A stretch of 64,000 nucleotides of DNA from Terriglobus aquaticus (GTDB lineage Bacteria; Acidobacteriota; Terriglobia; Terriglobales; Acidobacteriaceae): positions 806,001 to 870,000 of the forward strand of contig NZ_JAGSYB010000001.1 of assembly GCF_025685415.1 (NCBI RefSeq). Direction: 5' to 3'. Of the stretch, positions 52,520 to 63,380 are shown piece by piece. The translations under genes were made by a program, and so were the position numbers. The notes under the pieces are model-generated. The model did not search any database and was not told the origin of the DNA. It was given only the letters and a program-made list of their open reading frames with translations. Each line of letters begins with the position of its first letter. The stretch's first letter is position 1.

Positions 52520-54910
52520 TCACCTTTGTTGCGGAGGCTCAACCATGCCGGGAGATAGCCATACTTCAGCAACCTGGCCACCGCGCCCGCTGCCACCAGC
52601 ACCGGGCTGTCGCTGCCATTGGAGCGTAAGTGTGCCGCTCTTGGTGATGGACGGTGGCAGTGCGAACTCGACCTCCTGCGGGTTCGCCTTTCGCAGGTTC
52701 AGCGGCCGCACCACGGTGCCGTTGGCGAGCACCTCCATGGGCAGCGCGTAGTTTTCGCCGGCGTAGGTGATGCGGACGGTGTACGCCGCGTCGGGGTTCA
52801 GGCCGGTGTAGCGCAGGCTCAGGGGTGTTTCGTACAGCGTCTCCGCATAGCTGAGCCAGGAGAGTCGCCAGCCGTTCTCCAGTGTGCGATCCGCGATACC
52901 GTTGATCGCGGTGCGATACATCTCGGGGTCTTGCGTCCAGGGTACGCCGCGGACAAGATGAGGCTCGTTTGCCGGGTCACCCAGGTCATCGTAGTACCCG
53001 CCCGGTGCTGGGGTTTGCCAGTGTGCAATGCGCTGCAGTCGCGCCTGCTTCGCCGCCTCGTCGGGCAGGGCTGACACGCTGTGCATCTCGCTCGTAAGCC
53101 AGGTGCGGTCATTCAACGGAGTGTCAATCCGGTCCAGGTTCGCTCCGCGCTCCCAGTTCGAGGCGCCGTAGCGTGGGATGCTTAGTTGAAGGCCGACCTC
53201 GTGGAAGAGTTTGCCGGCGAGCGCTTCCAGATGTGAATGAATTTCAGTCTCTTCGCTCCCCGGGTGGGTATGCTGCAAAGCCTGTGTAGCGGCCTGCATT
53301 CTCTGCTGCGCGGTTCCCGGAGCTGCAAGTGCTCTCAGCGCCGCTTGCTCGCTGCTGAGTTCGCGGTCACGCTTGATCTGCAGGTAGCGATCATAGGCGT
53401 CGCGGTACAACAGGCTGTGCCATCGCCAGTCGGCAATGCGCGGCTCTGGCAAGTTCGCAAACTGCTGGTGCGTGTTCTGAATGGTGCTGGCCGTGGCGAG
53501 GATCTGGGTCGACCAGTTCTGTTCCAGGCCCGCGATCGCGTCTGCGTATGCCTGCGACCTTTCGCCCGCGCCGAGGAAGTATCGTGCGTACTCCTGCAGC
53601 GTTGTGGACGGCGACGTGTTGCGATTCCAACCCAGCGCGGCCCAGACGATCTTGTTCACGTCGTCGTTCACGCCTTCGCTGTACAGCATGAAGCCCGAGT
53701 TGTCGGCGGCATAGCGGCGGTAAGTGGTGGTGAACGCCTCGGGTCGCGGGCAGATCGGTTCACGCCCCTCGGTAAGGGCAAAGATCGGGTCCCACTCCGG
53801 TACGGGGAACTGCGCGTGCATGGTATGAGCGATGTCGGGATAGAACTCGACCGGCAGATCCGCGGGAATTTTCGCGCGCTCTTCCGGCAGGCCTTCTCTG
53901 GACTGCGGACCAAAGAAAACGCCGTTGAGCCACGATGGTCGCTGCGCCACCAGATCGTAAAAATGCTGAAACCGTTCTGCGGTGAAGCCCTGCGCAGAGA
54001 CCCAGATTGTTGCCTGCGGATGGTAGCGGTGCAGGATTGTGGACTCTTTCGCCAGCAGCGGAAACAGCACCTCGGGTGCGGTGTGGCCGGGATCGCCGCC
54101 GGGCACGTGCAGGCTGTCCACCAGCGGTAGGCGGCGCACGAGGCCCTCGAACTGCTTCAGCTCCGCGTCAACCTGCTTGGGGTCGGTGTAATCCTTCGCC
54201 ATCTCCGGGTAGTACAGGTCGTAGCGCAGCCCGTACTTCTGGCTCAGAGCAGAAAGGCCGACCACGACATCCAGTGGCGGCGCGTGGAACAGCGGACTGG
54301 TCCGGTCGTCGTCTGAGATGGGAGCGATTACCTGAACCGTGTTCATGCCGAAGACAGCGAGGTCCCACATCTGCTGCTCAAACTGCGGTAATGTCCAGGC
54401 GTCGTATGTGTTGTTCTTCATCCGGTACCCGATCTGATATCCGCGCACCGGTTTGTCCGGGGCGGAGAAGAACGGAGCCGGGTGGGGCAGGGGATCGCCG
54501 TGTGCGTTCAGGTGTCGCAAGAGCCAACCAGCGCCGAAGAGCTCACCCCGGGCATCGTTAGCGGCGATCACCAGGACGCGGCCATCCTGAAGGGTCGCGA
54601 CTGAGAAGCCTTCGGCAACCTGCTTGGCTGGTAAGTGTTGTCTGACCTGTCGCCACTCTGCATGCAACTGCCTGGGCAAAAGGTGGTCAACTTCCATATC
54701 CCGTGCGAGGACCACTGTTCTTTCCCTTAAGTGAACGGCGTTCCCTTGCACCCATTTGGAATGTGTCTGCTGAGCAGCTTCCATAGAAAACCGGAGCGCG
54801 ACCACCTCTTCTACCGGGCGATTTCTGCTGCACACGACGTGCACAGTCTGCTGCGCAGGTGAAGAAAGCGGGGTCACAAGGATGGTGGAAAGCACGAAAT
54901 ACCGGAGCAT
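52520..54910 (-). CDS. Secreted glycoside hydrolase, GH67/GH115 alpha-glucuronidase-like
   Basis: A 796-residue exported protein. The signal peptide is FVLSTILVTPLSSPAQQ. An N-terminal domain of the type seen before GH20/GH67/GH115 barrels follows (GRVLVIAANDARGELFGAGWLLRHL). Next is a (beta/alpha)8-like region (RGYQIGYRMKNNTYDAWT, FGMNTVQVIAP, LRYDLYYPEMAKDY, DSLHVPGGDPGHT, GFMLYSEGVNDDVNKIVWAALGWNRN). The C-terminal beta-domain is carbohydrate-binding-like. The exact family and catalytic acids are not certain. ATG 54910 has AGGA/AAGAG upstream. Two TTGTCGACAA-type operators stand 16-50 bp upstream, shared with the divergent receptor gene. Confidence 0.75.
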   Translation of the reverse strand: MLRYFVLSTILVTPLSSPAQQTVHVVCSRNRPVEEVVALRFSMEAAQQTHSKWVQGNAVHLRERTVVLARDMEVDHLLPRQLHAEWRQVRQHLPAKQVAEGFSVATLQDGRVLVIAANDARGELFGAGWLLRHLNAHGDPLPHPAPFFSAPDKPVRGYQIGYRMKNNTYDAWTLPQFEQQMWDLAVFGMNTVQVIAPISDDDRTSPLFHAPPLDVVVGLSALSQKYGLRYDLYYPEMAKDYTDPKQVDAELKQFEGLVRRLPLVDSLHVPGGDPGHTAPEVLFPLLAKESTILHRYHPQATIWVSAQGFTAERFQHFYDLVAQRPSWLNGVFFGPQSREGLPEERAKIPADLPVEFYPDIAHTMHAQFPVPEWDPIFALTEGREPICPRPEAFTTTYRRYAADNSGFMLYSEGVNDDVNKIVWAALGWNRNTSPSTTLQEYARYFLGAGERSQAYADAIAGLEQNWSTQILATASTIQNTHQQFANLPEPRIADWRWHSLLYRDAYDRYLQIKRDRELSSEQAALRALAAPGTAQQRMQAATQALQHTHPGSEETEIHSHLEALAGKLFHEVGLQLSIPRYGASNWERGANLDRIDTPLNDRTWLTSEMHSVSALPDEAAKQARLQRIAHWQTPAPGGYYDDLGDPANEPHLVRGVPWTQDPEMYRTAINGIADRTLENGWRLSWLSYAETLYETPLSLRYTGLNPDAAYTVRITYAGENYALPMEVLANGTVVRPLNLRKANPQEVEFALPPSITKSGTLTLQWQRQPGAGGSGRGGQVAEVWLSPGMVEPPQQR

Positions 54911-54925
54911 TGATGTCTCTTCCTG

Positions 54926-54937
54926 ATTGTCGACAAT
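54926..54937. promoter_or_regulatory. Operator 1: perfect palindrome ATTGTCGACAAT
   Basis: A 12-bp perfect palindrome between the glycosidase and receptor genes. It fits the TNGT-NN-ACNA form bound by FadR-type GntR proteins. Confidence 0.7.
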
Positions 54938-54947
54938 AATAATTAAA

Positions 54948-54959
54948 ACTGTCGACATA
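54948..54959. promoter_or_regulatory. Operator 2: ACTGTCGACATA
   Basis: Core TGTCGACA, centred 22 bp (two helical turns) from operator 1. The AT-rich spacer (AATAATTAAAA) may hold the -10 of the glycosidase promoter on the minus strand. Confidence 0.6.
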
Positions 54960-54965
54960 TTTTCC

Positions 54966-54994
54966 TTGATTTACCAACTTGCGAACAGTTACCT
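54966..54994 (+). promoter_or_regulatory. Possible promoter of the sugar-locus receptor gene
   Basis: TTGATT (54966-54971), a 17-bp spacer, TTACCT (54989-54994), about 95 nt before the receptor GTG. The -10 match is weak. Confidence 0.35.
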
Positions 54995-55090
54995 TGCGTT
55001 CACACATGAAATGACGCCGTTTCTCCAGAAGGAAGGAGATCAGGCGTGGCCAGACCGGCCCGCAGATTGCGCGCTTCATAGGAGATTAGT

Positions 55091-58000
55091 GTGCGAAACA
55101 GGAATGTCATTCAAATTGGGGCAGTGGCAACCATGCTGTCCTGCGTTGCGGCAGCATATGGACAGAGCAGCACGGGGTCTCTGTTTGGAACGGTAACTGA
55201 CACTTCCGGAGCTGTGGTCCCCAACGCAACCGTCTCCGTTGTGAATGTCGACACAGGCGTGAGGACGGATGTGAAGACAAACGGCGAGGGACTCTACTCG
55301 CTGCGCTTTCTGCAGATCGGCCAATACCGGGTGATGGTGGAAGCGCCAGGTTTCAGGCCCTACGCCGTTGGACCGGTGACGGTTGAGACCAACCTGCCGC
55401 TGAAGGTGGACAGCACGCTGGCCATTGGGTCAGAGACTTCCGTGTCCGTGAACGCGGATGTGGTTCCGCTGCTGAACACGGAAAACGGCACCGTGCAGGC
55501 TGTGGTGGACGCGAAGACGATCGACAACGTGCCGATCAACGGCCGCAACTTTACGCAGCTGACGCAGTTCACGCCAGGCATCGCGCTGACCAACCAGAAC
55601 CAATGGAACGGCGCGACTGGCAACCCGAACAATTCCGGTGTGCGCCAGCAGAGCGTGGCCACAGCGCCGTCCATCAACGGCAACCGCATGATCACGAACA
55701 ACTACACGCTGGACGGCATCCAGTTCTTCGACTCCGGTGCCAACTTCTCGAACGCCTTCGGCCTGCCCGGCTACAACCCGAGCCCGGATGCGATTCAGCA
55801 GGTCACCGTGGTCAGCACAAATCCGGCAGCCGAGTTCGGCTTCGGCACCGGCGGACAGATTCTGACTGTGTTGAAGAGCGGCACCAACAGCTTCCACGGC
55901 AGCGCCTACGACTACCTGCAGAACTGGAACCAGGACGCGAACACCTGGGGTAACAAGCGCGTGGCGAATGTTGCGAGCTTCACGCCCAGGACACGCTACA
56001 CTCAGCAGACCTTTGGCGGCACGCTGGGCGGCCCCATCTTCCGAGACAAGCTGTTCTTCTTCGCCGACTACGCCGGCTACCGGAAGCCGACTTCCGCGAC
56101 GTCGCTGTACAGCGTGCTGCCGCAGGCGTTCCGCAATGGCGATTTCTCTGCGCTGCTAACGGCTGCAAACGGCAGCAAGCAGTTGTACGACTCGCAGAAC
56201 GGCTATCGTGCCTTTGCAAACAACCAGCTACCGATCAATAACCCGGTGGCGAAGTACCTGTTTGCGCATCCGGAGCTTTACCCCTTGCCAAATCGCACAT
56301 CACCTGCGGCGGATGGTGTGTACCAGAACTACACGGGCGCGGCGGTCAAGTCGCTGGACCGGAACGATCAGGGCGACATCAAGATCGACTACAGGATCTC
56401 TGACCGCGACAGCGTGTTCGCTCGCGCTTCGTTCAGCCAGGCTCGCTCCGGTGCTTCGAATCAGGGCGTCGGTTTCGCGTTGCCGCTGGTCTCAGAGTTC
56501 CCCTTCAGCAGCTATGCCGCGAGCTACACGCGCGTCTTCTCGCCGACGATCTTGAACGAGTTCCGCGGCGGCTTCACGCGCATCGCCTACAACAGCTATA
56601 ACCAGGACTTTACGGGCGTGTTCGGCAACAACGGCGATGGCCTGGTGGGTATTAGCCTGCCATTTGCGCAAACCGCACCAGGCTTCACTGCGCAATCGTT
56701 CGTGCAGAACGCGTCTACGCCGCCTTCCACTTTGGGGACGGCTGCATCGGGTCGTCTTGCTCTAGATAACAATTACGAGTACGACGACACTCTCTCGATC
56801 CAGCGTGGACGGCACCAATTGCGCGCCGGCATCCAGGTGGTCTTCTACGAAAATAACTTCCAGGCGAATCCGGCGGGCGCGCTGGGTACATTCACCTACA
56901 ACGGCCTGTACACCGGCAATCCCGCGGCGAAGTCACCCAACGGTTATGACCTGGCGGACTGGGTGCTTGGCTATGCGTCTGCTTCGTCGATCAGCGTGGG
57001 CGGTACCGGACGTCGCGGTGGGAGACAGATTCGGTCCGCTTACTTCTTCCAGGACGACTTCCGCGTGAACGACAAGCTCACGTTGAATCTCGGCCTGCGG
57101 TATGAGTACGACCAGCCCTTCCACGAGGTGCAGAACCGCATCGCCAAGATCGACATTGCGACCGGGCAGTTGCGGCTGGCGGGTGTGAACGGCAACAACC
57201 GCGCGCTCTATAACCCGTTTTACGGTCAGGTTGATCCGCGCTTTGGCTTCGCGTACCAGATCAACCCGCGCACAGTGGTTCGCGGTGGCTTTGCCAGCAC
57301 GACGTTTATGGACTTCAACCAGTTCGTTAGCCACGCCACCAACCGACCGTTCGTGAACACCGCAACGGCAGCGGGCGTGACGCCCAGCGCGACTACGGGT
57401 GGTACGGTCATCAATCCTGCAAACGGCTTCGCCAACGTCGCGGCAGCGAGCACACCCACCAGCTACGCAACGTGGCGCGACGACCTACGGCCCGCATTTG
57501 TGCCGTCGTACGATCTGTCGTTGGAATACCAGCTGAGCAACACGCAGACACTGATGGCAGCGTACGTCGGCAACATCGGCAACCGCCTGTTGAACCTTCG
57601 CAACATCAACCAGCTGCACAATCCGGTGGTGGGCACCAGCACCGAGGTCGCGCCGTACTTCGCGCTTGCCGGACAGACGAACACGGTCACGCTGTTCGAC
57701 CAAGAAGGTATGCAGAACTACAACGCGGGCGAGGTGATCTACCGTAAGCGCGCGAGCCGCGGCATCACTTTTACGCTGAACTACACGTTTGCCAAAAACC
57801 TGACCAACGCGCAGGGATACGCGGCGCCGTCGAACATCTCTGGCGGTAGCAACTACCCGCAGGACTCATACAATCTGCGTGCGGAGTACGGCCCGGCCGG
57901 CTTCGACATTCGGCAGAACCTTACGTCGACATTTGTCGCGGAGCTGCCGTTCGGTCGTGGTCGCGCGATCGGACGCAACATGAACCCCGTGCTGGATACT

Positions 58001-58534
58001 CTGGTTGGCGGCTGGAAGGTAGCGGGCAACGCAACGCTGTACACCGGGTTCCCGATCACGGTCCAGGCGAACAACGCCGCAAACACAAACCAAGCTACAG
58101 GTCGCGCCAATCACTACCGCAAGCTGGTGCGCCGCAATCCCAAGTTCCTGCCAGTGGTTCAGGCGACCACGGCAAGTGGGGCGGGCCAGTATGGATGGTG
58201 GGGCAACGATCCCTCTGCTACGCCGTGCACCACGCCCGGTGTTGACAACGGCATTTGCGCTTATGGCGTGCCGGCTGCCGGGACGTATGGCAACGCTGGG
58301 ATCGGTACGGAGCGCAGCCCGGGGTTCCGCGGGATCGACGCTGCCGGATTTAAGAACTTCCACATCTGGCGCGAGAACAACTTGGTCTTCCGCGTGGATG
58401 CGTACAACGTGGGCAACATCGCGTCGTACAACAACCCTGGTCGCAGCGTAGCGACACCTTCCACTTTCGGGCTTGTGCAGAGCACGCGCTCGCAGCAGCG
58501 CCAAATCCAGTTCGCTCTGAAATACACGTTCTAA
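55091..58534 (+). CDS. TonB-dependent receptor, Oar-like, of the sugar locus
   Basis: A 1147-residue outer-membrane receptor starting at GTG, with AGGAG about 7 nt upstream. The signal peptide is IGAVATMLSCVAAAYGQ. It has the regulatory-like N-domain (GSLFGTVTDTSGAVVPNATV to YRVMVEAPGF), a plug (VPINGRNFTQLTQFTPGIAL, YTLDGIQFFDSG, FGFGTGGQILTVLKSGTNSF) and a barrel ending FALKYTF. It is divergent from the glycosidase gene and shares its operator region, so it probably imports the products or substrate of that enzyme. Confidence 0.93.
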   Translation: MRNRNVIQIGAVATMLSCVAAAYGQSSTGSLFGTVTDTSGAVVPNATVSVVNVDTGVRTDVKTNGEGLYSLRFLQIGQYRVMVEAPGFRPYAVGPVTVETNLPLKVDSTLAIGSETSVSVNADVVPLLNTENGTVQAVVDAKTIDNVPINGRNFTQLTQFTPGIALTNQNQWNGATGNPNNSGVRQQSVATAPSINGNRMITNNYTLDGIQFFDSGANFSNAFGLPGYNPSPDAIQQVTVVSTNPAAEFGFGTGGQILTVLKSGTNSFHGSAYDYLQNWNQDANTWGNKRVANVASFTPRTRYTQQTFGGTLGGPIFRDKLFFFADYAGYRKPTSATSLYSVLPQAFRNGDFSALLTAANGSKQLYDSQNGYRAFANNQLPINNPVAKYLFAHPELYPLPNRTSPAADGVYQNYTGAAVKSLDRNDQGDIKIDYRISDRDSVFARASFSQARSGASNQGVGFALPLVSEFPFSSYAASYTRVFSPTILNEFRGGFTRIAYNSYNQDFTGVFGNNGDGLVGISLPFAQTAPGFTAQSFVQNASTPPSTLGTAASGRLALDNNYEYDDTLSIQRGRHQLRAGIQVVFYENNFQANPAGALGTFTYNGLYTGNPAAKSPNGYDLADWVLGYASASSISVGGTGRRGGRQIRSAYFFQDDFRVNDKLTLNLGLRYEYDQPFHEVQNRIAKIDIATGQLRLAGVNGNNRALYNPFYGQVDPRFGFAYQINPRTVVRGGFASTTFMDFNQFVSHATNRPFVNTATAAGVTPSATTGGTVINPANGFANVAAASTPTSYATWRDDLRPAFVPSYDLSLEYQLSNTQTLMAAYVGNIGNRLLNLRNINQLHNPVVGTSTEVAPYFALAGQTNTVTLFDQEGMQNYNAGEVIYRKRASRGITFTLNYTFAKNLTNAQGYAAPSNISGGSNYPQDSYNLRAEYGPAGFDIRQNLTSTFVAELPFGRGRAIGRNMNPVLDTLVGGWKVAGNATLYTGFPITVQANNAANTNQATGRANHYRKLVRRNPKFLPVVQATTASGAGQYGWWGNDPSATPCTTPGVDNGICAYGVPAAGTYGNAGIGTERSPGFRGIDAAGFKNFHIWRENNLVFRVDAYNVGNIASYNNPGRSVATPSTFGLVQSTRSQQRQIQFALKYTF

Positions 58535-58555
58535 GTCTGCAGTTGGCTCCTCCAT

Positions 58556-58587
58556 AGGTCGGCCTTTGGGCCGGCCTCCTTTTTTTG
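58556..58587 (+). terminator. Rho-independent terminator
   Basis: An AGGTCGGCC/GGCCGGCCT stem with one T-G pair and a 4-nt loop, then a run of eight T after CC, 21 bp after the receptor stop. Confidence 0.9.
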
Positions 58588-58705
58588 GGTTTCAGCGGGA
58601 CCTGGCGCGGCTGCTTACTCTGGAGGTCGGAGCCGCACCAATCCGGAGCACTGGACGCGATAGCTGATGCGGCTCTTCCTCTGCGGCGTACTTGAGCGCT
58701 CACAG

Positions 58706-59923
58706 CTACTGGTTGAAGCGGGCAAAGCGAGAGGCGAGCAACGCCATGAGCAGACCCAACAGCAAATAGAGCCAACCAGTGTTGCCAAGTGCGTGCGCCA
58801 TGCCGAGGCGCTTGGATAGGCCAGCTACATACAGCGGCGCCAAGCCTCCACCGATCCAGCCGAGGGAGTTCATCAGGCCCGCGGCAAAGCCTCGCTCCTC
58901 TTCGGAGACGGTGTCGTAAAGCGATGCCCAGATGTTCGAGTCGTAGATTCCTTTGGCCAGGCCGAAGCCGATCAGCGCAAAGATCACCAGCGATAACGCA
59001 GATGCGCCACCGAAGAGCAGCAGGAAGGGCGCACCGACAAACAGGCCGATAGCCTGTGTCCGCATGCGTCCGCCACGCCGCTTGCGTGACATGCGATCCG
59101 CGAGCACGCCGCCCAGCAGCACGCCCAAGATTGAGGCGACCTGCACGTAAATGGTCGACTGTAAACCGGCCGACGCAACGTTCAGGTGCCAACGCTGGTA
59201 CAAGAACGTGGGCAGCCACGTTAGAAAGCAGGAAGCGACGAAGTTTGCGCCGATGAAGATGCAGACCAGCAGTTGCGCACGCTGGTTCTGCGCAAGTCGA
59301 AAAAGCTGCTTTTCGAGGTTGAGGGTCTCAGGCATGCGCTTAACCGTGTTGCGCATGTGCGGCTGTCGAAGATAAAGAGCAAGAATGACTGCCAGCACCA
59401 GCCCGCCCGCTCCAAAGAAGGCAAAGCTCTGGTGCCATCCGCTGCGCTCCGCGATCCATGCCGCGAGTCCGCCACCGGCTACCGTGCCCACATACACACC
59501 CGACTGGTGAAAGGCGAGCGCGCGGGAGCGAGTGTCTGGGCCGTGGTAGTCGGCGAGCAGCGAGAGTGCGGCGGGAAAGTAAAAGGCCTCGCCCAAGCCG
59601 CTTAGCGTTCGCAGAACGATGAGTGGAGTCAGGGTATGGACGAACGCTGTCGCTCCGGTGACAAGCGACCACAACGTTAGCGCGATGACGATGATCCACT
59701 TGCGGCTGAACCGGTCGCACAAGCGGCCGGCGATGGGCCCGGTCACGGCGTACATCCACATGAATGCGGAGCCGACAAAGCCAAGCTGGTAAGGGCCCAG
59801 ATGTAGATCGCGCGACAGCAACGGAAAAACGGAAAAGATCGCCTGGCGATCTGCATAGTTGAAAAAGCAGACCCACCACAGCAGCGCTACCGCGACCCAG
59901 CGACCGTCTCTTTTTTCGGTCAC
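58706..59923 (-). CDS. MFS transporter (sugar-acid/anion:cation symporter-like)
   Basis: A 405-residue inner-membrane carrier with 12 predicted helices. It has WWVCFFNYADRQAIFSVFPLL, FMWMYAVTGPIAGRLCDRFSRKWI (the loop 2-3 MFS motif), GLGEAFYFPAALSLLADYH, and a second-half motif VLLGGVLADRMSRKRRGG. The pattern resembles the hexuronate/galactonate branch of the family; the substrate is inferred from context. GTG start, 3 bp after the regulator stop, so both are one transcript. Confidence 0.88.
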   Translation of the reverse strand: MTEKRDGRWVAVALLWWVCFFNYADRQAIFSVFPLLSRDLHLGPYQLGFVGSAFMWMYAVTGPIAGRLCDRFSRKWIIVIALTLWSLVTGATAFVHTLTPLIVLRTLSGLGEAFYFPAALSLLADYHGPDTRSRALAFHQSGVYVGTVAGGGLAAWIAERSGWHQSFAFFGAGGLVLAVILALYLRQPHMRNTVKRMPETLNLEKQLFRLAQNQRAQLLVCIFIGANFVASCFLTWLPTFLYQRWHLNVASAGLQSTIYVQVASILGVLLGGVLADRMSRKRRGGRMRTQAIGLFVGAPFLLLFGGASALSLVIFALIGFGLAKGIYDSNIWASLYDTVSEEERGFAAGLMNSLGWIGGGLAPLYVAGLSKRLGMAHALGNTGWLYLLLGLLMALLASRFARFNQ

Positions 59924-59926
59924 GCC

Positions 59927-60721
59927 TTACATCCCGGTCCGTGCAACGGTCGCGGGGTCAATGCCGAGATCGAAAGCGGCACTGTGCTTCTGCATCAGCC
60001 GCTCGCGCGTGTAGGCGTCGTACTCCTCCAGGCGCTCTTGCAGGGAATGGCGGATGTGCGCGGCGAGCAGCCCCGCTGCGCGATCAGCGTCCTGCGCCAG
60101 CACAGCGTCCACAATTTCGCAGTGCTGTTTGTGGATGATCTCCAGCGCTTTTAGATCGTGGCCCTGCCGGCGAATCGAGAAGATGCGCACTAAGATGCGG
60201 GTGTCGTTCACAATCTTCTGCATCCGCGCATTCTGGGTTGAGAGCACAAGCAGAGCATGCAAGCGCAGATCCAGCATCATGAATGCGGCCTGCTCCTGGT
60301 CATCCAGTCGCTGCTTGCCGCTGGTGGCAAGAGTGTGGTGAATCTCCTCAAGCTGCTGCAGTATCTTCTTCAGATGTTCGACACTGGGGGCAGGCATACC
60401 GCGTTCCGCGGCCTTACGCACCGCGAACGTCTCCAGCGCCTCGCGCACCTCGTACAGGTCGACAATGTCTGTGCGTGACAGGTCGACGACGATCGAGCTG
60501 CGATTGGGCGACTGCTCGACAATGCCCTCGGCAACCAGTTGGCCGATGGCTTCACGCACCGGTGTCCTGCTCACGCGCAGATCCTGCGAGATCTGCAGCT
60601 CCGAGAGAACGGTGCCACGCGCAATCTTTCCAGAGATGATGCCTTGCTGAAGATGGGCATACACACGCTGGCGGGCGGAGACCTTTGGCTTCTGCTTGGG
60701 CTTGAGCTTTGTTGCAGGCAT
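59927..60721 (-). CDS. GntR family regulator, FadR subfamily (FCD domain)
   Basis: A 264-residue repressor-type protein. A Lys-rich N-terminus precedes the GntR winged helix (VSARQRVYAHLQQGIISGKI, LSELQISQDLRVSRTPVREAI). The all-helical FCD ligand domain has VREALETFAVRKAAERG, LRLHALLVLSTQNARM and AAHIRHSLQERLEEY, with His that can bind metal. Such proteins sense sugar acids or carboxylates. ATG 60721 is preferred over the in-frame TTG 60739. It probably binds the palindrome 46 bp upstream and the pair at 54926-54959. Confidence 0.9.
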   Translation of the reverse strand: MPATKLKPKQKPKVSARQRVYAHLQQGIISGKIARGTVLSELQISQDLRVSRTPVREAIGQLVAEGIVEQSPNRSSIVVDLSRTDIVDLYEVREALETFAVRKAAERGMPAPSVEHLKKILQQLEEIHHTLATSGKQRLDDQEQAAFMMLDLRLHALLVLSTQNARMQKIVNDTRILVRIFSIRRQGHDLKALEIIHKQHCEIVDAVLAQDADRAAGLLAAHIRHSLQERLEEYDAYTRERLMQKHSAAFDLGIDPATVARTGM

Positions 60722-60766
60722 GGGACTATTTTGCTTCAAAAAATGGTTGGCTGCGCATCAATAACA

Positions 60767-60778
60767 GTTGTCGACAAC
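60767..60778. promoter_or_regulatory. Operator 3: perfect palindrome GTTGTCGACAAC
   Basis: A 12-bp perfect palindrome in the 74-bp gap between the regulator gene and the DapA-family gene. Its TTGTCG (60768-60773) could also be the -35 of the DapA promoter, with AATACT or TACTAT 16-18 bp downstream, so binding would block transcription. Confidence 0.7.
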
Positions 60779-60795
60779 CTGCCGACCAAAATACT

Positions 60796-61755
60796 ATGAG
60801 AAGGCACTTCAGGACTGGAGCCCCGACGCACTTGCAAAGGCCGCCCTCTGCGCCAAACCCTTTCGCCTTCCGTATTTCAGGAGTTTGCGCGGCTCTCCTT
60901 GTGCCTCGAACGCCAGAGCACGCGGTCGACCTGGAGGCGACTTTGCGACTGCTCCAGTTTCTGCAGGCCCGTGGCATCCGGTCCTTCGCGCTGAATGGCG
61001 CGACCGGCGAGTACACGCGTTCCTCACAAGACGAAGTCGCGGAGCTGCTGCGCTGCGTGAAGTCAAATCTGGTTGCGGGGACCAGCCTTGTGCTTGGCGT
61101 CGGAGGTCCGGATACCCGGCGGGTCCAGGAGTTGATCGACCTGGGAGAAGACGCCGGCGTTGACGGTTACCTGGTTTCGGTTCCTTCCTTCTTTCCGCTG
61201 GAACAGCAGGACATCGTTTCGTTCGTAGATGCGCTACTCCTGCAGAAGCCGGCCTACCTTTACAACCTGCCTGCCTTCACGACGGCGATCACGCCAGAGA
61301 CTTCAGTCGGTCTGGTTCGCAGCAACGAGCACATCATCGGGGTGAAAGATTCCAGTGGTACGCTCGACACCGTCCGGCTGCTCTCTCGTGAGGCGCCGGA
61401 GGCTTCCAGGATTATCGGAAACGACAGCGCGCTACACCCCGCATTAGGAGAGGGGGTGTGCGACGGTGTCGTCTCCGGTGTTGGCGGAGTTCTGCCCGAA
61501 ATGATGCAGCGGCTGTACTCCGAGACGAGCCGCAATGCCATAAGCGACACCTCTCAACAACTGCTCCAAGTGCTGGCGGAATACATCGCGTGGCTCGGCA
61601 GGTTCCCGGTACCGTGGGGTTTGAAACTGACTGCGCAATACCGCGGGCTGTTCCGGGCTGAATTCCCGCTGCCGTTTTCCAGCGAGCGTCGCACCCATGC
61701 CGAGCAATTTTCAAAGTGGCTCGATGAACATCGCGAAAATCTACAGATCTCTTAG
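60796..61755 (+). CDS. DapA family lyase/aldolase (dihydrodipicolinate synthase-like)
   Basis: A 319-residue class I aldolase-fold protein: ALNGATGEYTRSSQDEVAEL (GTTGE-type motif), AYLYNLPAFT (catalytic Tyr), IGVKDSSGTLD (Schiff-base Lys). With a sugar-acid transporter, a FadR-type regulator and a glycosidase around it, it is more likely a keto-deoxy-sugar-acid aldolase or dehydratase than lysine-pathway DapA; that is inference. The ATG at 60796 gives about 25 residues before homology begins and has no Shine-Dalgarno sequence, so the start is uncertain. Confidence 0.85.
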   Translation: MRRHFRTGAPTHLQRPPSAPNPFAFRISGVCAALLVPRTPEHAVDLEATLRLLQFLQARGIRSFALNGATGEYTRSSQDEVAELLRCVKSNLVAGTSLVLGVGGPDTRRVQELIDLGEDAGVDGYLVSVPSFFPLEQQDIVSFVDALLLQKPAYLYNLPAFTTAITPETSVGLVRSNEHIIGVKDSSGTLDTVRLLSREAPEASRIIGNDSALHPALGEGVCDGVVSGVGGVLPEMMQRLYSETSRNAISDTSQQLLQVLAEYIAWLGRFPVPWGLKLTAQYRGLFRAEFPLPFSSERRTHAEQFSKWLDEHRENLQIS

Positions 61756-61766
61756 GACTCACTTTC

Positions 61767-63380
61767 ATGAAGACATCGATCGTGTACCTGGTGACAAGTG
61801 GCGACCTGCGCGACAGCGCCAACCGCATCTGCTGGCCCGCGCAGCGCGACCTGGAAGCTGCGCTGACCAACTGCTTGAGCAAGCGAGGCGTGACGCTGAA
61901 GCGTGCGGTTCCTGTGGACGAGGCTCGCGGGCACGGGTTCGTCAGCTCGCAGCGCGAAGGCATGGACATCTTTCTTCAGATCCCGCCGGAGGCGCCGCTC
62001 ATCTTCGCAACGGCTGCGTGGCAATATACCCACCATGTGCTTCCGGGTCTGCGATCGCACAAGGGATCGATCCTTACGGTCGCGAACTGGTCAGGGCAGT
62101 GGCCGGGCTTAGTCGGTTTGCTGAACCTGAATGGATCGCTGGTGAAGGCGGGCGTGCCGTTCTCCAGCCTGTGGAGCGAAAAGTTCGACGACGAGTTCTT
62201 TTTGCGCGGTCTGGATGAGTGGCTTGCAACGGGCGAGATCACGCACGACCTGTCGCAGGTCCGCAGCTTCGATCCCGCTGGCGTACAGCTAGAGGTGAAG
62301 AAGGTCGCACAGACGCTCGCGGACGACGTGCTGCGCCGGAAGGCGATCCTTGGTGTCTTCGACGAAGGCTGCATGGGTATGTACAACGCCATCTTGGATG
62401 ACGAACTGCTGAATCCGATGGGCTTGTACAAAGAGCGGCTCAGCCAGTCGGCGCTGCTTGCGGCGATGCAGCATGTGTCACAGAAGGAGGCGGACGGTGT
62501 GTATGCCTGGTTGCGCAATGCCGGCGTGACCTTTCACTTCGGTGACGATGCCGCCCAGCACTTGACCCCGGAGCAGGTGCTGAACCAGTGTCGGATGTAC
62601 ATCGCCGCGGTACGCATCGCGGACGAATTCCACTGCGACGCGATCGGCATTCAATACCAGCAGGGCCTGAAGGACATGGCCTCTGCCTCGGACCTTCCCG
62701 AAGGCTTGCTGAACAATCCGGAGCGTCCTCCGGTCTACTCGCCCGACGGTCGCGAGCTGTACGCGGGCAAGGCGCTGCCGCACTTCAACGAGGTGGACGA
62801 GTGCGCGGGCGTGGACGCCCTGCTGACAAATCGCGTCTGGGAAAGGCTTGGCCTGGATCCTTCGACCACGCTGCACGACCTTCGTTGGGGAGAGCTTTAC
62901 CCTCGAAATTCAGCGATTCCAGAGGACTTTGTGTGGCTGCTGCAGATCTCCGGTGCGGCGCCGGCTTCGCACTTTGTGGGCGGCTACTCCGGCGCTTCCA
63001 GCATGCGTCAGCCTGCGATGTATTTTCCGCAAGGCGGTGGTTCGCTGCGTGGCGTTAGCAGGCCGGGCGAGATTGTGTGGAGCCGCGTGTTCCAGGAAGG
63101 CGGTCGGCTCCACATGGACATCGGTCGCGGCTCTATTCTTGAACTGCCGGATGCGGAGACGCAGCGGCGCTGGAACAATGTCACCTACGAGTGGCCGATC
63201 GTTCACGCGAAGCTGCACGGCATGACGCGCGATCGGTTGATGGCGCGGCATCGTGCAAACCACATGAACATTGCGTACGCTCCGACAGCGCAAGAGGCAG
63301 ACCACGCGCTCGCGTGCAAGGCCGCGCTGTTTGAACAGCTCGGCGGTAAAGTACACCTGTGTGGGCGGGTACAGCTATAG
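61767..63380 (+). CDS. Sugar isomerase-like protein (L-fucose/L-arabinose isomerase fold)
   Basis: A 537-residue cytoplasmic protein, 11 bp after the DapA-family gene and surely cotranscribed. The order of alpha/beta segments and motifs such as LGVFDEGCMGMYNAILDDE, CDAIGIQYQQGLKDM and SHFVGGYSGASSMRQPAMYF resemble the fucose-isomerase superfamily, whose active site uses two acidic residues and a late His. The assignment is from memory of the family and is moderate. It could act on an uronate or unusual sugar released by the glycosidase. The ATG has AGGAC upstream. Confidence 0.55.
   Translation: MKTSIVYLVTSGDLRDSANRICWPAQRDLEAALTNCLSKRGVTLKRAVPVDEARGHGFVSSQREGMDIFLQIPPEAPLIFATAAWQYTHHVLPGLRSHKGSILTVANWSGQWPGLVGLLNLNGSLVKAGVPFSSLWSEKFDDEFFLRGLDEWLATGEITHDLSQVRSFDPAGVQLEVKKVAQTLADDVLRRKAILGVFDEGCMGMYNAILDDELLNPMGLYKERLSQSALLAAMQHVSQKEADGVYAWLRNAGVTFHFGDDAAQHLTPEQVLNQCRMYIAAVRIADEFHCDAIGIQYQQGLKDMASASDLPEGLLNNPERPPVYSPDGRELYAGKALPHFNEVDECAGVDALLTNRVWERLGLDPSTTLHDLRWGELYPRNSAIPEDFVWLLQISGAAPASHFVGGYSGASSMRQPAMYFPQGGGSLRGVSRPGEIVWSRVFQEGGRLHMDIGRGSILELPDAETQRRWNNVTYEWPIVHAKLHGMTRDRLMARHRANHMNIAYAPTAQEADHALACKAALFEQLGGKVHLCGRVQL

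Follow-up and report, generated by a model that had tools for sequence, protein, structure and literature searches.

A predicted operator of an FCD-type GntR regulator shared by four transcripts of a nutrient-related gene block in Terriglobus aquaticus and its relatives

We examined a 64,000-nucleotide stretch of the Terriglobus aquaticus genome (contig NZ_JAGSYB010000001.1, positions 806,001 to 870,000; hereafter the window), in which the gene for a GntR-type regulator lies in a block with genes for a transporter, a lyase, an isomerase-like protein, a surface enzyme and an outer-membrane receptor. Three short palindromes stand between these genes, and an earlier note, made from the sequence alone, had proposed that they are operators of the local regulator. 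The block contains the following features (coordinates are those of the window; the predicted binding sites have no strand).

52520-54910, minus strand: surface enzyme with a signal-peptide-like start, possibly a TIM-barrel glycosidase; family unassigned in Pfam/NCBIfam searches
54926-54937: predicted operator A, ATTGTCGACAAT; centred about 22 bp ahead of the likely start codon of the surface enzyme; orthologues of the enzyme are preceded by a conserved site too
54948-54959: predicted operator B, ACTGTCGACATA; 22 bp from operator A, a spacing that recurs at the receptor/enzyme promoters of relatives
55091-58534, plus strand: TonB-dependent-receptor-like outer-membrane protein with a carboxypeptidase-regulatory domain (Pfam OMP_b-brl_4 2e-203, CarboxypepD_reg 9e-20)
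58706-59923, minus strand: MFS transporter (Pfam MFS_1 9e-61)
59927-60721, minus strand: GntR regulator with an FCD domain (FadR subfamily); Pfam GntR and FCD above cut-off
60767-60778: predicted operator C, GTTGTCGACAAC; in the gap between gntR and the dapA-like gene; relatives have a conserved site near gntR, dapA or both
60780-60787: putative accessory half-site, TGCCGACC; 11 bp from operator C
60796-61755, plus strand: DHDPS/NAL-superfamily lyase (dapA-like; Pfam DHDPS 9e-33)
61767-63380, plus strand: L-fucose/D-arabinose isomerase-fold protein (FucI-like; Pfam Fucose_iso_C above cut-off)

The regulator combines an N-terminal GntR winged-helix domain (PF00392: 1.8e-14, 53.6 bits, cut-off 27) with a C-terminal FCD domain (PF07729: 2.9e-17, 63.7 bits, cut-off 24.3). 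Its gene is separated by 3 bp from that of the MFS transporter, which is probably part of the same operon and which scored 168.7 bits against the NCBIfam D-galactonate transporter model, under the cut-off of 395. The gntR-MFS pair is divergent from the dapA-fucI pair, with operator C between them, and the surface enzyme and receptor genes are divergent as well, with operators A and B between them. Gene orientation, together with spacing, thus divides the block into four transcripts (gntR-MFS, dapA-fucI, enzyme and receptor), in agreement with the earlier note.

Read directly from the sequence, the three palindromes lie where they had been placed: GT-CG-AC is at positions 54928, 54950 and 60769, and the centres of operators A and B are 22 bp apart. 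Their description as three matching palindromes holds for the core TGTCGACA, which is common to all of them, and not for the longer form: exact TTGTCGACAA is contained in two of the three, and the middle palindrome is CTGTCGACAT, with two mismatches to TTGTCGACAA. Their assignment to the FadR subfamily stood, with a corrected consensus, since a comparative GntR study (PMC4494728) gives NyGTM-N0-1-KACNy for this subfamily, not the TNGT-N-ACNA type that had been cited. The same study ascribes GT-N2-AC spacing to UxuR, GntR, PrpR and some others, and describes weaker half-sites 7-12 nt from the site centre for GntR-family sites. The GT-CG-AC of the block fits the published consensus, and the site is found near the regulator's own gene as well as near target genes.

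The exact palindrome forms, rather than mismatched ones, stand out in the window, where 10-mer matches with up to two mismatches were not enriched (27 matches vs 21.6 expected). In the 4.16-Mb genome, the exact 10-mer has four copies, two in this block and two in open reading frames elsewhere; the coding-like codon score is clear for one of the latter (L258, 0.22) and weak for the other (L261, 0.0). The score is a plain measure of codon usage that was calibrated on the genes of the window; we set its threshold at 0.05, below which some true coding positions fall. The 8-mer TGTCGACA has 37 copies in the genome, four of them in the 5.85-kb block vs 0.05 expected by simple proportion. The fourth copy of the block, at 55246 within the receptor open reading frame, is probably fortuitous, and the 75%-identical receptor of a related genome (G001) has no TGTCGACA copy matching it. 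Among the 33 copies outside the block, 26 lie in an open frame with a codon score of at least 0.05, and 7 score lower or have no open frame; two of these seven were inspected, and one proved to lie in a 332-aa open reading frame and the other on the start codon of an apt-like gene. The core is thus rare outside coding-like DNA, and the frequent random occurrence in the same genome that had been named as a danger to the proposal was not seen. A looser 14-mer with up to two mismatches gave 88 forward matches in the genome of T. aquaticus vs 42 for the reversed control and was not used further. The apt-like copy (L260, about position 1501) covers a Met-Ser-Thr start (ATGTCGACA), a kind of sequence that can lead to false operator predictions with this core.

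The conservation of the core was followed in a comparison set of 150 genomes, including that of T. aquaticus (G000). The regulator matches form a group of 18 (552 bits for the self-match, 176-214 bits and 41-47% identity for the others) and a distant group from 84 bits down. Loci were available for 17 of the 18 orthologues, the eighteenth being a second copy in G011 (L052). Of these 17 loci, 13 have TGTCGACA no more than 300 bp from one end or the other of gntR, vs none of the 14 loci of distant matches (all distant matches with loci, the second match in T. aquaticus itself included). Loss of the palindrome from related loci had also been named as a point that would speak against the proposal; the core is kept at orthologous genes.

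The sites are also found where the genes are arranged differently. We scanned the best 80 loci of a longer list of matches to the FucI-like protein, many of which are short or from other phyla, and judged the presence of a regulator within the fetched stretch. A GntR orthologue is linked to the FucI homologue in three of them (Bryocella elongata, L056; Granulicella sp. dw_53, L058; an Acidobacteriaceae metagenome-assembled genome, L062), and all three carry sites (seven in 65 kb), vs 5 of the other 77 with one copy each (five in 1.30 Mb). In Bryocella elongata, the order of the six genes differs; one site precedes dapA, one is at gntR and one lies between the enzyme and receptor genes. The gntR site lies inside the longest reading frame, 52 bp ahead of where similarity begins, and a fourth TGTCGACA copy lies within fucI (11329). 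In G001, the enzyme/receptor pair, a dapA-fucI-MFS operon and a BNR_2-like gene occupy separate places, each with a site. In G008, the enzyme, the dapA-fucI-MFS operon and the BNR_2-like gene are on three contigs other than that of the regulator, again each with a site, and in G015 the receptor has a site too. Surface-enzyme genes of at least 50% identity have the site in five of five cases with the regulator present (G000, G001, G008, G011, L056) vs neither of two without a regulator orthologue (G006, G083), which have no FucI homologue either. This co-occurrence of regulator and predicted operator, including sites far from the regulator gene, supports a link between the four transcripts and the local GntR protein.

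The same comparison bears on the idea that a different regulator uses the sites, such as the LacI-type or GntR-LacI-type proteins encoded beside the loci of some relatives. Sites indeed adjoin such genes in L041 (by Pfam) and in L042, L044 and L232 (named by eye), but no gene of these types was found among the eight proteins scanned around the block, and the site co-occurs with the FCD-GntR orthologue, which makes this explanation very improbable.

Further palindromes were observed in relatives. In G001, a copy of TTTGTCGACAAA lies between two genes (L226, position 4324), about 420 bp upstream of a gene for a 585-aa membrane-protein-like product, and is possibly one more target of the regulon. 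Nine CTGTCGACAG palindromes are spread over about 34 kb at G051:C1:245000-284800 (L234, L235) and five at G084:C190:8000-45000 (L236, L237), among genes, mostly named by eye, for small GntR-type regulators and for lyase, MlrC-like, SDR, aminotransferase-like and receptor proteins. They apparently belong to another large regulon, distinct from this one, whose core is nearly identical.

To describe the spacing of the sites, we collected 39 operators judged to lie upstream of regulon genes and searched around them for second core matches with up to two mismatches, taking the expectation from mononucleotide shuffles. Operator B (counted as the partner of A), the copy at 55246 in the receptor open reading frame and copies elsewhere in the loci were left out, the last including L056 11329, L062 7686, L039 13621, L043 18272, L045 17939, L046 7036, L047 2977, L049 11881 and those in L225, L226 and L228. 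A second match lay 11 bp away at 9 of the 39 operators (0.31 expected), 22 bp away at 5 (0.33 expected) and 31 bp away at 4, all from one closely related group. When operators with similar flanks were removed, 27 remained, with 6 matches at 11 bp and 3 at 22 bp, and this total of 9 was not reached in any of 2000 shuffles. The 33 control copies of the T. aquaticus genome gave one match at 22 bp, at most one at 11 bp and three at 12 bp. The 11-bp site accompanies 7 of 12 dapA promoters (operator C of the window included) and two gntR/BNR promoters, and the 22-bp site 5 of 9 receptor/enzyme promoters (A and B of the window included). We conclude that putative accessory sites recur at whole helical turns; the phased double operator postulated for the surface-enzyme promoter finds its counterpart in the 22-bp spacing in relatives.

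These observations leave almost no room for the view that the palindromes are due to chance or form RNA hairpins. A terminator-like stem of seven pairs can be drawn on the minus strand at 60770-60786, on the gntR side, and coding sequence can give rise to the 8-mer, as at the Met-Ser-Thr start mentioned above. However, the stem consists of operator C and its half-site, and neither chance nor a hairpin fits the conservation at rearranged promoters, the co-occurrence with the regulator and the 11- and 22-bp spacing.

From the centre of the predicted operator to the likely start codon downstream of it, the distance is about 22 bp for the enzyme gene, 24 bp for the dapA-like gene and 51 bp for gntR, and the single sigma-70-like match in the enzyme/receptor region overlaps operators A and B; no such match was found in the gntR/dapA region. 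Since the sites are close to start codons and the sigma-70-like match overlaps A and B, repression with self-control appears to be the likeliest mode. Activation by the same GntR protein, or action in both directions, is unlikely: the sites do lie between divergent genes, and operators A and B are about 140-160 bp away from the opening of the receptor open reading frame, but both the distances to the start codons and the position of the only sigma-70-like match at the enzyme/receptor region, with none at gntR/dapA, argue against it.

Taken together, TGTCGACA with mostly A/T flanks is the predicted operator of the FCD-type GntR regulator (59927-60721), which most likely represses all four transcripts; we put the probability of this reading at about 0.87. 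A regulator dimer would bind one site between gntR-MFS and dapA-fucI, aided by the half-site one helical turn off; in the region between the surface enzyme and receptor genes, two sites separated by two turns would be occupied. The bound regulator would repress all four transcripts and would be released by a sugar-acid compound that the MFS transporter imports or by a product of that compound. The proposal that the local GntR protein represses all four transcripts is thus supported by conservation and co-occurrence, from which we infer binding and repression.

Several observations weigh against this interpretation or narrow the evidence for it. One orthologue locus (L008 of G056) has its site 1.45 kb from gntR, at the head of an MFS-gntR pair, and in two others (L016 of G051 and L017 of G008) the 300 bp on either side of gntR are free of sites, which lie elsewhere in the genome, before dapA-fucI. 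In L022 (G112), the orthologue and an enzyme homologue are present and no site was seen near either, and the BNR_2-like homologues (54%) of G002, G007 and G013 have no site though the regulator is present. The 11-bp site is missing at 5 of the 12 dapA promoters, and the 22-bp site at 4 of the 9 receptor/enzyme promoters, that of Bryocella among them. The enzyme co-occurrence comparison rests on seven genomes, and related loci are not independent of one another. Since only exact copies of the 8-mer core were taken as sites, degenerate operators are uncounted and the invariance of the core is by construction. A/T-flanked sites have at least one match in 76 of the 150 genomes, with a single match (operator A) in T. 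aquaticus. Their genome-wide count was rejected as a weak discriminator; many genomes without an orthologue hold at least one copy.

The gene products were compared with characterized families. In an alignment with a solved DHDPS, the lyase keeps both the Schiff-base lysine (in GVKDSS) and the active-site tyrosine (in YNLP); PMC4016182 names these blocks as active site in NALs too. The lyase scored below the DapA equivalog TIGR00674 (110.1 bits, cut-off 206) and far under the NanA equivalogs NF003164 (60.2 bits, cut-off 281) and TIGR00683 (53.6 bits, cut-off 382). The model of the FucI-like protein has a pLDDT of 90.7, and its best fold matches are FucI and D-arabinose isomerase (Z 34-37; for the best match, Z 36.9 with an rmsd of 2.6 over 340 residues). 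It thus shares with the FucI family the fold and a Fucose_iso_C domain above cut-off, but differs from the solved FucI and D-arabinose isomerases in sequence (16-18% identity), and neither an NCBIfam model nor a phmmer hit in PDB was found for it. Its matches with 57-71% identity in the best 80 loci (L056-L135) are spread over many phyla. The gene has pentulose kinase genes nearby in some Acidobacteriaceae and in Tropicimonas, and in Pedobacter and Hymenobacter it stands near sodium symporter, DHDPS-family and AraC-type genes (named by eye).

The surface enzyme (797 aa) had no Pfam or NCBIfam match at E 0.001, and a PDB sequence search gave no family. Its N-terminal part has weak profile similarity to GH84 and GH67 proteins (E 0.013-0.025), and its model, built from a two-row alignment, is poor (mean pLDDT 46.5), with a low-confidence barrel at residues 150-384. 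The label "glycosidase" of the earlier note is thus reduced to a possible TIM-barrel glycosidase. Fold matches to GH84, GH156, GH158, GH164 and other proteins (Z about 12) are common TIM barrels and were not used as evidence of function. The translations that we used begin one codon ahead of the ATG (54913 instead of 54910). The family has matches at E 1e-10 in 19 of the 150 genomes, that of T. aquaticus included, and the motifs PGGDPGHT and SEGVNDD are invariant in six aligned proteins. In G011, a genome rated 10% contaminated, residues 546-712 of the enzyme are matched at two places (L159 and L165; 61% identity, 192-aa open frames).

Further clues to the substrate come from relatives. A ribulokinase gene above the NCBIfam cut-off is divergent from the MFS gene in L040, with the site between them, and follows fucI in L058 and L062. 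In Tropicimonas (L088), the gene immediately before fucI encodes a pentulose kinase that scores above its cut-off, and a DHDPS-like gene, named by eye, lies farther upstream. A BNR_2 gene (by Pfam in L040) or its homologue is linked to, or under, the site in several relatives. The ribulokinase of T. aquaticus itself is encoded about 86 kb from the block (G000:C1:773517-775025), with no TGTCGACA in its 4.5-kb locus, and no BNR_2-like homologue was found in the genome at E 1e-20; both were dropped as members of the T. aquaticus regulon and are claimed for relatives only.

FucI acts on D-arabinose, and cleavage of 3-deoxy-D-manno-octulosonate (KDO) yields D-arabinose. A lyase, an aldose isomerase and a pentulose kinase would therefore suit KDO or a similar 8-carbon ulosonic acid, from which pyruvate and D-arabinose would be formed. 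The lyase, the isomerase and the pentulose kinase and sialidase-like genes of relatives suggest that the substrate is an ulosonic acid that yields a pentose, perhaps KDO. More specifically, and only tentatively, the regulon may serve to break down KDO, or a closely related 8-carbon ulosonic acid, that comes from surface glycans of plants or bacteria. The surface hydrolase would free the acid, the DHDPS-family lyase would split it into pyruvate and D-arabinose, the FucI-type isomerase would convert the latter to D-ribulose, and ribulokinase would then feed the pentose phosphate pathway. The acid, or a product, would be sensed by the GntR regulator, which would act through operators whose accessory sites are one turn (lyase) or two turns (receptor/enzyme) away. 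According to PMC4016182, which came up in a search on KDO aldolases and degradation, one NAL used D-arabinose less well than D-mannose. Literature searches on KDO catabolism, D-arabinose isomerase and aldolase jointly, and on D-arabinose, L-fucose isomerase, KDO and sialidase jointly, found no matching work.

Sialic-acid (Nan) catabolic loci likewise encode a NAL-superfamily lyase, a sugar-acid-type transporter and a FadR-subfamily regulator, and the sialidase-like BNR_2 genes of relatives add to this likeness. The block differs from them in its lyase, far below the NanA equivalog cut-offs, in its isomerase and in the pentulose kinase of relatives. Moreover, NanR binds direct repeats, unlike the palindromes found here (PMC4494728). 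The resemblance to FadR-subfamily (FCD) regulons such as those of UxuR, DgoR and GlcC in the same study includes the GntR winged helix-turn-helix domain with FCD, the GT-N2-AC palindrome, additional half-sites at 7-12 nt from the site centre, double sites between divergent genes and the control of carbon-acid metabolism. In contrast to those regulons, the one described here includes a TonB-type receptor, an unassigned surface enzyme, a DHDPS-family lyase and a FucI-type isomerase. A literature search on GntR regulons or operators of Acidobacteria gave no match, and one with the motif gave no title on a GntR operator among the matches listed.

We conclude that this is a new regulon of a known kind of regulator. 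Very probably, scattered genes can be read as one system of nutrient uptake and breakdown; in related species the switch stays with these genes where they have become separated. For Acidobacteriaceae-like bacteria, the finding offers an operator code of a nutrient regulon that can be put to the test; this group is absent from the comparative GntR study as far as its available parts go (no Acidobacteria in the taxonomy table and no "acidobacter" in the text; PMC4494728). Through it, a surface-enzyme family that is unassigned and a FucI-like isomerase that lacks an NCBIfam model are connected with a single pathway, whose substrate can now be sought. Finally, the class of promoter tends to go with the spacing of the sites, one turn at the lyase and two turns at the receptor and enzyme, which makes a specific prediction on graded control by one regulator.

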